Of a stretch of 64,000 bases of DNA, positions 28,362-45,545 are shown one piece after another (positions within the stretch are counted from its first letter, which is position 1; the number at the start of each line of letters is the position of its first letter). Source of the stretch: Demequinaceae bacterium (GTDB lineage Bacteria; Actinomycetota; Actinomycetes; Actinomycetales; Demequinaceae); the NCBI GenBank assembly GCA_016933155.1, contig JAFGBM010000010.1, positions 62,001 through 126,000 on the forward strand. Direction: 5' to 3'. The notes beneath the pieces are model-generated. The model was given only the letters and a program-made list of their open reading frames with translations, did no database searches and was not told the origin of the DNA. The translations under genes were made by a program, and so were the position numbers.

Positions 28362-30422
28362 ATGGGTGAGGCGCCGGTCAGCCTCTGGACGCATGCGTCC
28401 AGCGATGCTGAGTTGCTCGCGGGAGTCCGGGGTGGGGAGTCAGCCGCCTTCGGGATTCTCTTCGAGCGGCACGCCGCCGCGGCGCGCCGGGTCGCCTCCA
28501 TGTACTCAGCTGCTTCCAGCGATGTCGACGACATCGTCTCCGAGTCCTTCGCCCGTGTCCTGAAGATTCTTCAGGAAGGAGGAGGACCGGATCTTGCTTT
28601 CCGGGCCTACCTTTTCACGGTCGTCAGGCGCACCGGGCTCGACCTCATCCGCAAGGCCAAGAAGATCGGTCCGGAAGATGTTGCCGACTGCGACGCCAAG
28701 ATCGGGTACTCCGCCTCGTCCGACGAGCCAACACTCACCGACTTCGAACACTCCATCGTGGCCGATGCCTTCAGGTCACTGCCGGAACGCTGGCAGGTTG
28801 TCCTGTGGTACACGGAGATCGAAAAGAAGGCCCCAGCGGAGGTGGCCCCCCTTCTCGGACTGAGCCCCAATGGAGTCGCCGCCCTCGCCTACCGGGCTCG
28901 CGAGGCCTTGCGTCAGGCCTATCTTCAGCAACACCTCGCCACGACCGACGATGTGTCCTGCCTGTCGGTGAGCGAACACCTGTCGGCCTATGTCCGTGGC
29001 GGCCTGACCAAGCGTGAGCACGCGAAGGTCGAGGCGCACGTCAAACAGTGCGAGCGATGCGAGGCCCTCGTCGCCGAACTCGAAGATGTCAACCGCGGGC
29101 TTCGGGCCGTCATCGCCCCGATCGTCCTCGGCATCATCGGTCTCGGCGCCCTGGAAACCGCGCTCCCGATTGGTGGCGTCGGTGCGGCGAGCATCGCCGG
29201 CGGCGCCGGGGTTGGCGCGGGAAGCGCCGGGGGCGCCGGGGGAACGGGAACGGCCGCGGTCGGGGCGTCGACAACCGGAGGGCTCGGGGCGGGCGTGGCC
29301 TCAGGAATCGGTGGCGCGGTCGCAGCTGTCAGCGGTGTCTCGACGGCAACGTCCGCCACCACCCAAACCACCGCCGCGGTCACGACCGCCATGGCCAACA
29401 CGGTCACCGCGGTCGGCACATCGGGGGCGACCTTCCTGACCGCCGCAGCCGCAACCGTGGGGGTCGCCGCGCTGGCCGTATCCGGAGCCGGTCTCTTCGG
29501 GGGCCTCAGCGCCTATCACGAGGACCAGGAAGCCGCCGACTCCTCGACCAGCGTCATCGACCTCATCATGAGCGAAGACACCTCACTCCCCGGTCCCGGG
29601 CTTCCCCCCGTTCCCGAAGTCGTGACACCGTCCGACCCGGCCCCGGTCGCGCCGCCCGTGGAACCTGCTCCACCCGCCCCCAAGGCTAAGCCCGTGGCGG
29701 ATCCCGAGCCCGAGCCGGACCCCGATCCCATCGTCGACCCAGACCCCGACCCGGATCCGGACCCCGATCCCATCGTCGACCCAGACCCCGACCCCGACCC
29801 GGATCCGGACCCCGATCCCATCGTCGACCCAGACCCCGACCCGGACCCGGGACCGGTCATCGTCATCTCTGACGGCTCCATCACCATCACCATCGGCAAC
29901 GGAGGCAACTTCTTCCTCACGCTCGCCGAGCCAACCCTTGAAGTCCTGGTCTCCAACATCGACGACCGGGGATCGACCCCCATCACCCTGGTCTTCGTCG
30001 TTCCGGATGGGTTGACCTTCGTGCCCGACCCGGATGGGAAGAAGTGGTTCCGGATCGACGAGTGGAAGTGCGATCTGACCGACGACCTGATGATCGCGGC
30101 GTGTGTCACGCCGTCGCTTCCCCCTGGGACCGAGCGGTCGCTTTCGCTCCCGGTCTCGTTCACCGGTGATCCCGAAGACCCCGAGGTGGAACCGACGCTT
30201 GACGAGGATGCGACCACCGACCTCGTGTACTGGAACATCGTCTCTTGGCCGATCGCGGTCGAGGTGCCGACAGCCATCAAGCCCGAGGACGCGGTCGATG
30301 AGGATGATGAAGGAGGGGACGATGGCGACGGTGATGGCGATGGCGACGGCGACGGCGACGGTGATGGTGATGGCGATGGCGGCGACACCGGAGACGGTGA
30401 AGGCGAGCCCGTCCTGACCTAA
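28362..30422 (+). CDS. ECF sigma factor fused to anti-sigma zinc finger and surface extension
   Basis: One open frame of 686 residues joins several modules. Residues 15-95 are sigma region 2 (FGILFERHAAAARRVAS, then DDIVSESFARVLKIL) and 135-190 are region 4 (LPERWQVVLWY, then LGLSPNGVAALAYRAREALRQAYL). A zinc-binding anti-sigma motif follows with His226-x3-Cys230-x2-Cys233 (HVKQCERC). Hydrophobic segments lie near 247-270 and 365-390 with a Gly/Ala-rich stretch between. An Asp-Pro repeat (about 447-500) leads to a domain of about 130 residues (ISDGSITITIGNGGNFFLTLAEP onward) and a final Asp-Gly repeat. The outer part suggests a membrane sensor tied to the sigma factor. GGAGAGG precedes ATG 28362. 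Whether the protein is cleaved is unknown. Confidence 0.85.
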   Translation: MGEAPVSLWTHASSDAELLAGVRGGESAAFGILFERHAAAARRVASMYSAASSDVDDIVSESFARVLKILQEGGGPDLAFRAYLFTVVRRTGLDLIRKAKKIGPEDVADCDAKIGYSASSDEPTLTDFEHSIVADAFRSLPERWQVVLWYTEIEKKAPAEVAPLLGLSPNGVAALAYRAREALRQAYLQQHLATTDDVSCLSVSEHLSAYVRGGLTKREHAKVEAHVKQCERCEALVAELEDVNRGLRAVIAPIVLGIIGLGALETALPIGGVGAASIAGGAGVGAGSAGGAGGTGTAAVGASTTGGLGAGVASGIGGAVAAVSGVSTATSATTQTTAAVTTAMANTVTAVGTSGATFLTAAAATVGVAALAVSGAGLFGGLSAYHEDQEAADSSTSVIDLIMSEDTSLPGPGLPPVPEVVTPSDPAPVAPPVEPAPPAPKAKPVADPEPEPDPDPIVDPDPDPDPDPDPIVDPDPDPDPDPDPDPIVDPDPDPDPGPVIVISDGSITITIGNGGNFFLTLAEPTLEVLVSNIDDRGSTPITLVFVVPDGLTFVPDPDGKKWFRIDEWKCDLTDDLMIAACVTPSLPPGTERSLSLPVSFTGDPEDPEVEPTLDEDATTDLVYWNIVSWPIAVEVPTAIKPEDAVDEDDEGGDDGDGDGDGDGDGDGDGDGDGGDTGDGEGEPVLT
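29701..29850 (+). repeat. Asp-Pro coding tandem repeat in the sigma factor gene
   Basis: Repeated GACCC(C/G)GA units encode runs of Asp-Pro broken by Ile-Val (unit DPIVDPDPDPDPDP, three copies of unequal length). The longer DNA units starting at the three CCCATCGTCGACCC copies differ by whole GACCCC/GACCCG pairs, a pattern expected from slippage or recombination. The peptide would be a stiff, acidic, extended spacer such as found in wall-spanning linkers. Confidence 0.8.
30328..30402 (+). repeat. Asp-Gly coding simple repeat at the sigma factor C-terminus
   Basis: A run of GAYGGY hexamers (GATGGCGACGGT and variants) encodes about twelve Asp-Gly pairs just before the C-terminal TGDGEGEPVLT. 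It could bind calcium loosely or simply be a low-complexity tail. It is in frame with the sigma factor, which supports the reading frame to the stop at 30422. Confidence 0.7.
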
Positions 30423-41359: not shown

Positions 41360-43677
<2,318 letters not shown>

Positions 43678-43691
43678 TCCGTTGGCGGCTT

Positions 43692-43919
43692 CGACCCCTC
43701 CCTCGCTCGCAACCGACCACCGTACGTTGGTCGTCGGGGTATTCCGGCGCTCCGCGCCTCCAACCCCTCCCTCGCTCGCAACCGACCACCGTACGTTGGT
43801 CGTCGGGGTGTTCCGGCGCTCCGCGCCTCCAACCCCTCCCTCGCTCGCAACCGGCCACCGTACGTTGGTCGTCGGGGTGTTCCGGCGCTCCGCGCCTCCA
43901 ACCCCTCCCTCGCTCGCGT
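43692..43919. repeat. 69-bp tandem repeat array downstream of asd
   Basis: CTCGCTCGC recurs at 43702, 43771, 43840 and 43909, exactly 69 bases apart, giving three full units and a partial fourth. Units differ by only a few bases (for example GGGGTATTCC versus GGGGTGTTCC). Each holds a 20-base near-palindrome, CGACCACCGTACGTTGGTCG, centred on CGTACG with one mismatched pair in ten. Because 69 is divisible by three, several frames stay open through the array, but none has a ribosome site or family match. It lies in the convergent gap before tRNA-Pro. Confidence 0.9.
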
Positions 43920-43947
43920 GAGAAGAGAGCGAGCTCTCTTCTCACGC
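43916..43947. terminator. Perfect 14-bp hairpin, likely bidirectional terminator
   Basis: GCGTGAGAAGAGAG (43916-43929) pairs perfectly with CTCTCTTCTCACGC (43934-43947) around a CGAG loop. It lies between asd (plus) and tRNA-Pro (minus), which converge here. There is no clear T-run, so it would be an actinobacterial I-type hairpin rather than a classic rho-independent site. Confidence 0.7.
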
Positions 43948-43955
43948 TCGCTCAG

Positions 43956-44029
<74 letters not shown>

Positions 44030-44096
44030 AGAAGCCATCCGCTTGTCGCGGAGCCAGCCCAGGATAGCCGAACGAAGGCTCGGACGCGAACCTCGC

Positions 44097-45545
44097 CTAT
44101 CCGACTTCGGCTCGGACGCTCGACCTCGTTCTTGAACCCATCGCCGTCATGAGCACATAGGCAACCGCAAGCGGAACGATCTCGATCAGCATGCGATTGA
44201 AGGAATCGGCGTCGAATGGCCGGAAGGCCGTCCCCCGGGCATAGGCGAGGATCAGCCCGAGGGGAATGAAGGTCGTCACTGGCAGTCTGAAAGCAGCGAG
44301 ACCCCGACCTTGTCCAGACACGACGGAGAGGACAACCAGGAACGCCAGAACCCCGACCGCCGAACCCCACCAGGAATACGGGCCGAAGTCGTTCGCGTAT
44401 ATGGCCCTGACGCTATCGGTGAAGATGGCGGAGTCGCGAAGGATGAAAGCAGCGAGGACGACGAGGAGGCCGACCTCGTACACGATGACCAGTCTGGAGG
44501 TGAGGATTCTCCCCCACTCGTGGCTGACCGCAAAGGCTGCTACCCCGAGGAGCAGGCCTGCGAGGGCCATCATTGGGGAGAAGCCCTGAGGGAGACCCCT
44601 CAGGGCTTTGGCGGTCGCCGCGAAGCCGTACCACGCCGCCATGCCCGCTCCAAGCGTCCCCACGAGGAGCGCCGCCGCCCGACCAGGGCCCTTGCCGGAG
44701 GCCACAACGGGGACGATCGCCGCCAGGGCGAGGAACGGGCCCTCCGGTCTCGTGAGGACGAGAGCGACGGCCGCGAGTCCCGCCACGACCCCCGGAGCTC
44801 TTCCTAGGGCCGTGGAGCCCGTCATCATCATCCAGCAGGCCCCGGCAAGCGCCAACACACCAAGGGCGGTGAGGAGGTGGCCGTTGAGATACACGGCGTG
44901 AAAGACGAAACGGTTCATCGACGCCAGTGCCAGAACCCCGAGGGAGGCGACGGCTGCGGCTCCCCCTCTGCCCATGACCGGTATCGCCCGTGTCGACACG
45001 ATCCAAGCGACGATCCCCAAGACCGCTGTCGCGATGAGGGGGGTGACTCCGGCGAGGTAGTATTCTCCAGCCAGCCTGGCGGGCGCATGAAGAAGCGAGA
45101 CTCCCACCAGTCTTTTGTCCAACTCCGAGCCGGTGACGGCCTCGGTGTAGTGGTCGTCGGCGAGCAAAGCACCAAGGCCTAGGTACTCCAGGCTGTCGGA
45201 ATGGTAGGTGTAGGTATTGAGCCCCCGGTTGACGGTCACGATCACCGTGGCAAGAACCGTCACGACGGCCGATCCGACGATGGGAATGGAGAAGACGGGG
45301 CTCGAGCGCCTCTTCCAGCCCCACCAGGCCAAGGGTCCTCCCCCGACAACAGCCATCGTTAAAAGGGGGGACCCCGGAAGGGGGGTGGCAACTTGGACGA
45401 ATCCCACCGCGATGGTGAGGAAAACTCCGACGGCGAACCCCCACAGTGCGAGACCCCACCCCTTCATGCCAAGGCTGGCCATCAGGCACGCCCCCCCGAC
45501 GAGCATCGAGGCGATTGCGGCCAGCTCGACGATCAATCCCGTCAT
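44097..45545 (-). CDS. Polytopic membrane protein, possible GT-C glycosyltransferase
   Basis: A 482-residue protein with about twelve hydrophobic segments. An outer loop near residue 115 carries NTYTYHSDSLEYLGLGALLADDHYTE, an acidic and aromatic stretch reminiscent of the first loop of GT-C enzymes. I do not recognise a named family. It overlaps the 210-residue gene upstream by four bases, and together with the metallophosphoesterase they form an operon-like run. It could build or modify a surface polymer, but that is inference. Confidence 0.6.
   Translation of the reverse strand: MTGLIVELAAIASMLVGGACLMASLGMKGWGLALWGFAVGVFLTIAVGFVQVATPLPGSPLLTMAVVGGGPLAWWGWKRRSSPVFSIPIVGSAVVTVLATVIVTVNRGLNTYTYHSDSLEYLGLGALLADDHYTEAVTGSELDKRLVGVSLLHAPARLAGEYYLAGVTPLIATAVLGIVAWIVSTRAIPVMGRGGAAAVASLGVLALASMNRFVFHAVYLNGHLLTALGVLALAGACWMMMTGSTALGRAPGVVAGLAAVALVLTRPEGPFLALAAIVPVVASGKGPGRAAALLVGTLGAGMAAWYGFAATAKALRGLPQGFSPMMALAGLLLGVAAFAVSHEWGRILTSRLVIVYEVGLLVVLAAFILRDSAIFTDSVRAIYANDFGPYSWWGSAVGVLAFLVVLSVVSGQGRGLAAFRLPVTTFIPLGLILAYARGTAFRPFDADSFNRMLIEIVPLAVAYVLMTAMGSRTRSSVRAEVG

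Follow-up and report, generated by a model that had tools for sequence, protein, structure and literature searches.

The closest described system is that of the rtT (RttR) repeats in the tyrT operon of Escherichia coli (Bosl and Kersten 1991, as cited in PMC2965389 and PMC4986893). As far as the accessible parts of these two articles go, rtT is described as an RNA that comes from the tRNA transcript and may play a part in the stringent response (PMC2965389, PMC4986893), and its release from the tRNA primary transcript in E. coli is reported in the accessible part of PMC4986893. We have analysed the tyrT-tyrV region of E. coli K-12 and have found 3.1 copies of a 178-bp unit, in which the last 19 nt of tRNA-Tyr are repeated exactly 3 times and, in 3 of 3 units, are predicted to pair with an upstream GGGGAAGGAT. 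To our knowledge, rtT in E. coli has been an isolated oddity so far. Other structures at tRNA 3' ends include intrinsic terminators and the attachment sites of integrative elements, which repeat the tRNA 3' end downstream.

In this work, we have found an array of a similar plan behind tRNA-Pro in a Demequinaceae genome (1,885,200 bases in 15 contigs, 99.83% complete). The window, i.e., the whole stretch of 64,000 nucleotides that was analysed, corresponds to C12:62001-126000. An initial annotation of the window had described 69-bp tandem repeats with 20-bp near-palindromes and a perfect hairpin between convergent asd and tRNA-Pro genes, and all of these parts have been recovered at the positions given below. 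For the repeat, TRF reports 43694-43917 with a period of 69, 3.2 copies, 98% matches and a score of 434, and repeat finding gave 3 copies in register, spaced by 69 bp. The near-palindrome CGACCACCGTACGTTGGTCG has 9/10 pairs in two of its copies, and the third copy (43852-43871) shows one further change compared with the other two. That annotation did not contain the link to the tRNA: on the tRNA strand, each full unit terminates in 8-9 nt identical to the tRNA-Pro 3' end, that is, the array belongs to tRNA-Pro. The features are as follows, where R1 denotes a covariance model of 13 modules, all from tRNA-Pro loci.

43955..44029, minus strand: tRNA-Pro(CGG) gene (ARAGORN; RF00005, 65.8 bits)
43916..43947, minus strand: hp1, a 14-bp perfect stem with a 4-nt loop; putatively terminator-like or a processing barrier
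43870..43920, minus strand: module 1, consisting of purine-rich linker, hp2 and tRNA-end copy (R1, 58.3 bits, module 1 being among the 13 modules that built R1)
43871..43879, minus strand: tRNA-Pro 3'-end copy CACCCCGAC of module 1 (sequence)
43852..43871, no strand: 20-bp near-palindrome at the hp1 position of the next unit (sequence)
43801..43851, minus strand: module 2 (R1, 60.6 bits)
43802..43810, minus strand: tRNA-Pro 3'-end copy CACCCCGAC of module 2 (sequence)
43783..43802, no strand: 20-bp near-palindrome (sequence)
43732..43782, minus strand: module 3 (R1, 55.9 bits)
43733..43741, minus strand: tRNA-Pro 3'-end copy TACCCCGAC of module 3 (sequence)
43714..43733, no strand: 20-bp near-palindrome (sequence)
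43694..43713, minus strand: partial fourth unit, linker only, without tRNA-end copy (TRF)
42628..43677, plus strand: asd, the convergent neighbour (Pfam PF02774 and PF01118, semialdehyde dehydrogenase)

Read on the tRNA strand, the tRNA ending in CACCCCGA and then C is followed by 7 nt, by hp1 (which starts 8 nt behind the discriminator base), by the purine-rich linker GAGCGAGGGAGGGG, and by hp2 and CACCCCGAC; near-palindrome, linker, hp2 and CACCCCGAC then repeat, with the near-palindromes filling the hp1 position in the distal units and TACCCCGAC as the final full copy. The units copy the tRNA 3' end, ...GTCACCCCGA and then C, and CCA is not encoded. The partial fourth unit gives a weak R1 match of 12.8 bits at 43680-43713. 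Pfam was applied to two window neighbours, asd and a 482-aa frame beyond the tRNA. The asd gene lies outside the element, and relatives can have other genes there (ROK in G024, alcohol dehydrogenase in G032); the neighbours of the element differ from locus to locus (asd, tig, ROK, alcohol dehydrogenase; Pfam).

A 153-aa frame (window 43440-43901, minus strand) runs through the array with 23-residue arginine-rich repeats (69 = 3 x 23), and we take it to be reminiscent of the Tpr frame of tyrT, which is annotated as protamine-like in the E. coli tyrT record. Protein coding of the array has been rejected because most of the steps in relatives (28, 29, 37, 43, 46, 55, 79 bp) are not multiples of three. 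Elsewhere in the window, at 29703-29850 and 30320-30406, there are short tandem repeats (6 to 48 bp) of a type that may code for runs of Asp-Pro or Asp-Gly.

A search of the source genome for other copies of the unit, which had been suggested as a check, returned one further place, C11:57096-57316. This second array follows tRNA-Pro(TGG) and is convergent with the trigger factor gene (tig); its steps alternate between 51 and 69 bp. A 14-bp perfect hairpin stands at equal distance behind both tRNA genes; the two hp1 stems differ (GCGTGAGAAGAGAG vs GCTCGGGAAGCAAG), the loop CTCG is common to both, and the modules of the two loci are 98% identical. In each of the two loci, one tRNA-end copy reads TACCCCGAC in place of CACCCCGAC. 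Among the 43 tRNA genes examined, only tRNA-Pro(CGG) with 3 copies and tRNA-Pro(TGG) with 5 have their own last 8 nt repeated within 600 nt downstream, and the third tRNA-Pro (GGG), which has CCA encoded, shows no copy of its last 8 nt within 600 nt. By itself hp1 is not special, since in the same genome tRNA-Ile(TAT) and tRNA-Met are likewise followed within 35 nt by perfect hairpins, of 13 and 12 bp. For a 17-nt core, the genome-wide scan allowing up to 3 mismatches found 50 matches vs 30 for the reversed control, and the 7 matches with 0-1 mismatches are all at the two tRNA-Pro loci. A dispersed repeat or MITE family has been rejected, and the mobile repeat family considered in the initial annotation is not supported, because copies are found only at these two loci. 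The fixed copy number and lack of other copies by which the same annotation would have recognised a simple local duplication are not what is seen: a second locus exists, and spacing and copy number vary among related species. Overall, the interpretation of the initial annotation is partly supported.

Tandem units lying 3' of a tRNA gene, each ending in the 3' end of that tRNA, are thus present in both the source genome and E. coli. In both cases about three units stand directly behind the tRNA gene, and the tRNA end that closes each unit is predicted to be paired with an upstream G-run. On the other hand, rtT lies behind tRNA-Tyr in 178-bp units, whereas the present element lies behind tRNA-Pro and is carried by two isoacceptor genes; the copied part is 19 nt including CCA in tyrT, but 8-9 nt without CCA here. 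With the rtT model RF00391, nothing is matched in window 43500-44200 at E<=1, and none of the five loci L008, L009, L094, L203 and L205 has a match at the gathering score, while the E. coli control (L339) gives 4 matches. Judging by these sequence comparisons, the element shares the plan of rtT, not its sequence family. In the Rfam search of the window region only the tRNA passes, and the six other matches at E<=1 are microRNA models far below the cut-off. Among the matches listed for published accounts of repeats behind tRNA-Pro or in Demequina, drawn mostly from outside the subscription literature, none deals with the element, and the same holds among the matches listed for the rtT literature.

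We have then examined the occurrence of the element in the family. Over 47 family genomes, R1 gave 28 matches at E<=0.01 in 11 genomes. As many as 25 of them are at tRNA-Pro, 20 behind a complete gene and 5 behind a tRNA-Pro 3' end (G401, G402-TGG, two of G035-TGG, and G405:C1), where the tRNA gene is cut by the contig end or separated by a transposon-like stretch. The other 3 (G015, G034, G024:178014) are not at tRNA-Pro and are weak (E 9.9e-4 to 4.4e-3), as are 2 of the 25 tRNA-Pro-linked matches (E 5.3e-3 and 6.8e-3). In total, 9 of the 47 genomes have the element behind tRNA-Pro. Since 13 tRNA-Pro units built R1, the independent loci are G401, G402-TGG, G035-TGG and two of G405, and each of them is again at a tRNA-Pro end.

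The arrays of relatives differ in layout. In G001, which belongs to the source genus, a hairpin and units with steps of 28, 55, 29 and 29 bp are located behind tRNA-Pro(TGG) and one module behind tRNA-Pro(CGG), with little in common with the source genome beyond GGAACACCCCGAC. In G024 (genus g3), both tRNA-Pro genes are followed by arrays, and the CGG array has a ROK-family gene behind it. The tRNA-end copies per locus number 3 and 5 in the source genome, 1 and 5 in G001, 4 and 3 in G024, 3 in G035-CGG, and 1 in G402-CGG, in both G405 loci and in both G032 loci; the copy-to-copy steps in relatives are 28, 29, 37, 43, 46, 55, 64, 78-80 or 87 bp. It should be kept in mind that, as many of the genomes are drafts or metagenome bins, the number of tandem copies may be affected by misassembly. 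The identity between the two loci within a genome is 98% in the source genome, 93% in G032 and 76% in G024. As the two loci are near-identical in some genomes, exchange between loci seems to occur in some lineages.

Beyond the family, the element has been found in two other families of the order, and its distribution is patchy. Over 396 order genomes at E<=1e-4, R1 matched in six, namely five of the source family and G128 of another family, whose matches follow tRNA-Pro(CGG) and a duplicated tRNA 3' half. In family f3, arrays are located behind tRNA-Pro(CGG) with 3 copies in G203, 3 in G177, 2 in G319 and 2 in G390, the first step being 79-94 bp and the later ones 78-80 bp, and a single module turned up later in G151. 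The arrays of the first four genomes were exposed by the noisy pattern CACCCCGACN{70,100}ACCCCGAC, which has matches in 200 of 396 genomes: of the 30 loci listed, 8 contain a tRNA-Pro, 4 of them (family f3) with the element, and many of the other matches are in apparently proline-rich coding sequence. The pattern ACACCCCGACN{18,48}ACACCCCGAC matched 7 of the 396 order genomes, and only G000 and G024 at tRNA-Pro. Model R2 over 396 phylum genomes matched only the source genome, apart from one weak match without a tRNA in the locus; runs over 40 genomes had stricter filters, by which weak matches are lost. A survey of tRNA-Pro(CGG) in the order, excluding the source family, searched 139 genomes and obtained 106 loci, of which 2 were too short and 104 were tested. 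The 8-mer of the tRNA recurs within 350 nt in 4 of the 104, compared with a letter-shuffle rate of 1.4%, or ~1.5 loci expected; L302 is of the element's kind, L243 and L250 look like other elements, and L315 is ambiguous. G128 was scored negative in this survey because its other CGG gene was taken. In a pattern scan of genome contigs, 6 stretches were found. Four belong to the source family, of which three carry the name Demequina or Demequinaceae and one is labelled Actinobacteria bacterium; the fifth, from a Propionibacteriaceae bin, is similarly laid out, and the sixth, from Uhrbacteria, was judged a chance match.

Other sequences have also been observed at tRNA-Pro 3' ends. In several genomes of genus g3, a transposon-like end (roughly GATGTSTCRRGACATC) starts right behind tRNA-Pro, and loci with such an end are L099, L114, L115, L120, L122, L130, L144, L152, L166, L172, L180 (1683-2879) and L183. 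In L180, L183 and L172, CTGTCACCCCGAC (the tRNA 3' end) recurs at the far junction, and L180, which we take to be an IS481-like element, codes for a protein in which Pfam identifies rve and HTH domains. The tRNA-Pro 3' ends look like an insertion hotspot. In G128 (L195, L196), a second tRNA-Pro(CGG) 3' half with hp1 and a module occurs without a complete tRNA gene, and a further tRNA-end copy comes next, resembling the distal attachment site of an integrated element. Another, different short element reads approximately GACAGGATGCCGGGAGGAG...GCGACGGCTCCTGTCACCCCGAC, in varying form, and has inverted ends and ~15 nt of the tRNA-Pro 3' end; it is found behind tRNA-Pro terminators, mostly in family f13 (L143, L224, L232, L250), and the same type also occurs at G233:C1:2737957-2738048, tRNA context aside. 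In L143 (G030), the ~46-bp terminator stretch that follows tRNA-Pro(TGG) is found again, unchanged, after the element, and CACCCCGAC precedes each copy.

RNA structure prediction, another check proposed at the outset, was run on 43678-43954, which gave z = -6.09 for the plus strand and -4.06 for the minus strand, with 0 of 200 shuffles as good on either strand. For a single distal 69-nt unit of the source genome, where hp1 is weak and consists of the near-palindrome only, z is -0.24 and 75 of 200 shuffles are as good. Ten units from 8 genomes of 3 families share a predicted fold composed of hp1, a G-run/C-run stem, an internal loop and a short-looped inner stem, the C-run being that of the tRNA-end copy, and 9 of the 10 whole units have z from -4.0 to -8.3. 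All four C of the tRNA-end copy are predicted to be paired with upstream G in 23 of 24 modules, as a GGGG-CCCC closing stem without a C1-G72-like pair; since this stem hardly varies, it says nothing for itself.

The compensatory changes are located in hp1, including that of units 2 and 3 (family f3). The covariation test used 7 distinct units of G203, G177 and G319, the identical third unit of G203 being left out. Over 16 pairs, 96.4% of the cells are paired, compared with 31-52% in slid controls (max 51.8%), and 5 pairs are changed on both sides, in 13 such cells. The covariation score is 0.351 vs 0.171 in shuffles, with 0 of 500 shuffles as high, while the pairs with double changes (70 of 500 as high) and the further pair types (408 of 500) are unexceptional; because the tested sequences are related, such shuffle counts overstate covariation. 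The pairing of hp1 is predicted, and in this one family the prediction has compensatory support. Unit 2 of G177 is broken at two pairs and, judged from its sequence, looks like an exchange product. As to the tRNA-end copy, ACCCCGAC is invariant in the 24 modules of alignment A3, where the mean column identity is 61%, but this invariance is partly built in since the A3 modules were chosen by that motif. Counted by ACCCCGA alone, there are 43 copies in 20 loci, and 43 of 43 are then followed by C, with several of the 20 loci coming from patterns that include that C.

Overall, the element is real and tied to tRNA-Pro; it recurs in relatives and shows compensatory changes in one lineage, and its function is putative. 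We tentatively favour the reading, at slightly short of an even chance, that the array serves the tRNA-Pro transcription unit as a structured 3' trailer, working like the rtT repeats of E. coli tyrT. The transcript would run from tRNA-Pro through hp1 into 1 to 5 tandem modules. As a terminator or processing barrier, hp1 may limit read-through or protect the tRNA end. The hairpin of each module would be closed by GGGG with the CCCC of the copied tRNA 3' end, so that ..GAC would stay single-stranded as in the tail of a tRNA, and the enzymes of tRNA 3'-end maturation may trim read-through transcripts at these tRNA-like ends. The outcome would be short trailer RNAs, or decoys that tune the maturation of two tRNA-Pro species. 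A tRNA trailer as a possible regulatory RNA is also a likeness to the 3' external transcribed spacer sponges (leuZ), as far as the accessible parts of the sources on them describe.

It could also be argued that hp1 is the terminator that matters and hp2 a second one, the tandem copies being functionless duplicates from slippage or unequal exchange. With its position and perfect stem, hp1 resembles intrinsic tRNA terminators, and in the comparison of CGG and TGG loci from part of the 47 family genomes, many relatives, including many other genomes of genus g3, have a hairpin-plus-T terminator there. Since hp1 is in the usual terminator position of element-less relatives, termination is plausible, and to this extent the termination zone of the initial annotation is supported, but no clear T-run is seen here. 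The perfect stem of hp1 has a purine-rich tail, followed by the conserved purine linker and the modules, and the terminator scan returned only the inner 5-pair hairpin with a T-rich tail (1 found vs 0.6 in shuffles). The variable copy number and spacing would suit such duplicates, as would the perfect hairpins behind the Ile(TAT) and Met tRNAs, the near-identity of the CGG and TGG modules, and unit 2 of L205, which looks like a recombinant of its neighbours. However, the tRNA-end copy is kept while the rest diverges (the 43 of 43 ACCCCGA copies with C, and ACCCCGAC in A3), and the compensatory changes of hp1 also occur in f3 units 2 and 3, where purines and not T come next. We regard this explanation as rather doubtful.

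A further explanation takes the tRNA-Pro 3' ends as a hotspot of mobile elements and the units as scars, i.e., pieces of mobile elements or attachment sites that restore the tRNA end. It would account for the transposon-like ends at family tRNA-Pro 3' ends, including the CTGTCACCCCGAC seen at the far junction in all three cases examined there, for the tRNA 3' half with hp1 and module in G128, and for the terminator stretch duplicated around an element in G030. But the module sequence is unlike the transposon ends seen, no copies have been found away from a tRNA-Pro end except the three weak model matches, and scars would not keep a common two-hairpin fold or the compensatory changes of one family. 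In contrast to attachment sites of integrative elements, the copies are tandem, 28-87 bp apart and structured, with no space for an integrase gene; an attachment site with an integrase gene between the tRNA-end copies was likewise rejected for the source genome, whose copies are 69-84 bp apart and too close. Taken together, we consider integration scars unlikely.

An array of binding sites on the DNA, either the palindromes or GTCGGGGTGTTCC, would fit the window palindromes and their regular 69-bp spacing, but it is highly improbable, as the steps in relatives are irregular (28 to 87 bp) and CGTACG, the palindrome noted in the initial annotation, is present in the two arrays of the source genome and in 0 of 23 element stretches checked in other genomes.

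Returning to the trailer reading, a broader form of it is that trailer repeats mimicking tRNA ends are a recurrent bacterial RNA element with separate origins, behind tRNA-Tyr in enterobacteria and behind tRNA-Pro in Actinomycetota, from which unit-length RNAs with tRNA-like ends would be released that titrate tRNA 3' maturation and so set the supply of particular isoacceptors; we offer this as a speculation in which we have little confidence. The present element is a second case unrelated in sequence, in another phylum and with another tRNA; it is carried by two isoacceptor genes and shows compensatory changes in one family. Such a second case allows a comparative study of the purpose that tRNA-end mimics serve in tRNA trailers. 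For the family itself, the tRNA-Pro 3' ends of Demequinaceae are places where repeats and transposon-like ends gather.
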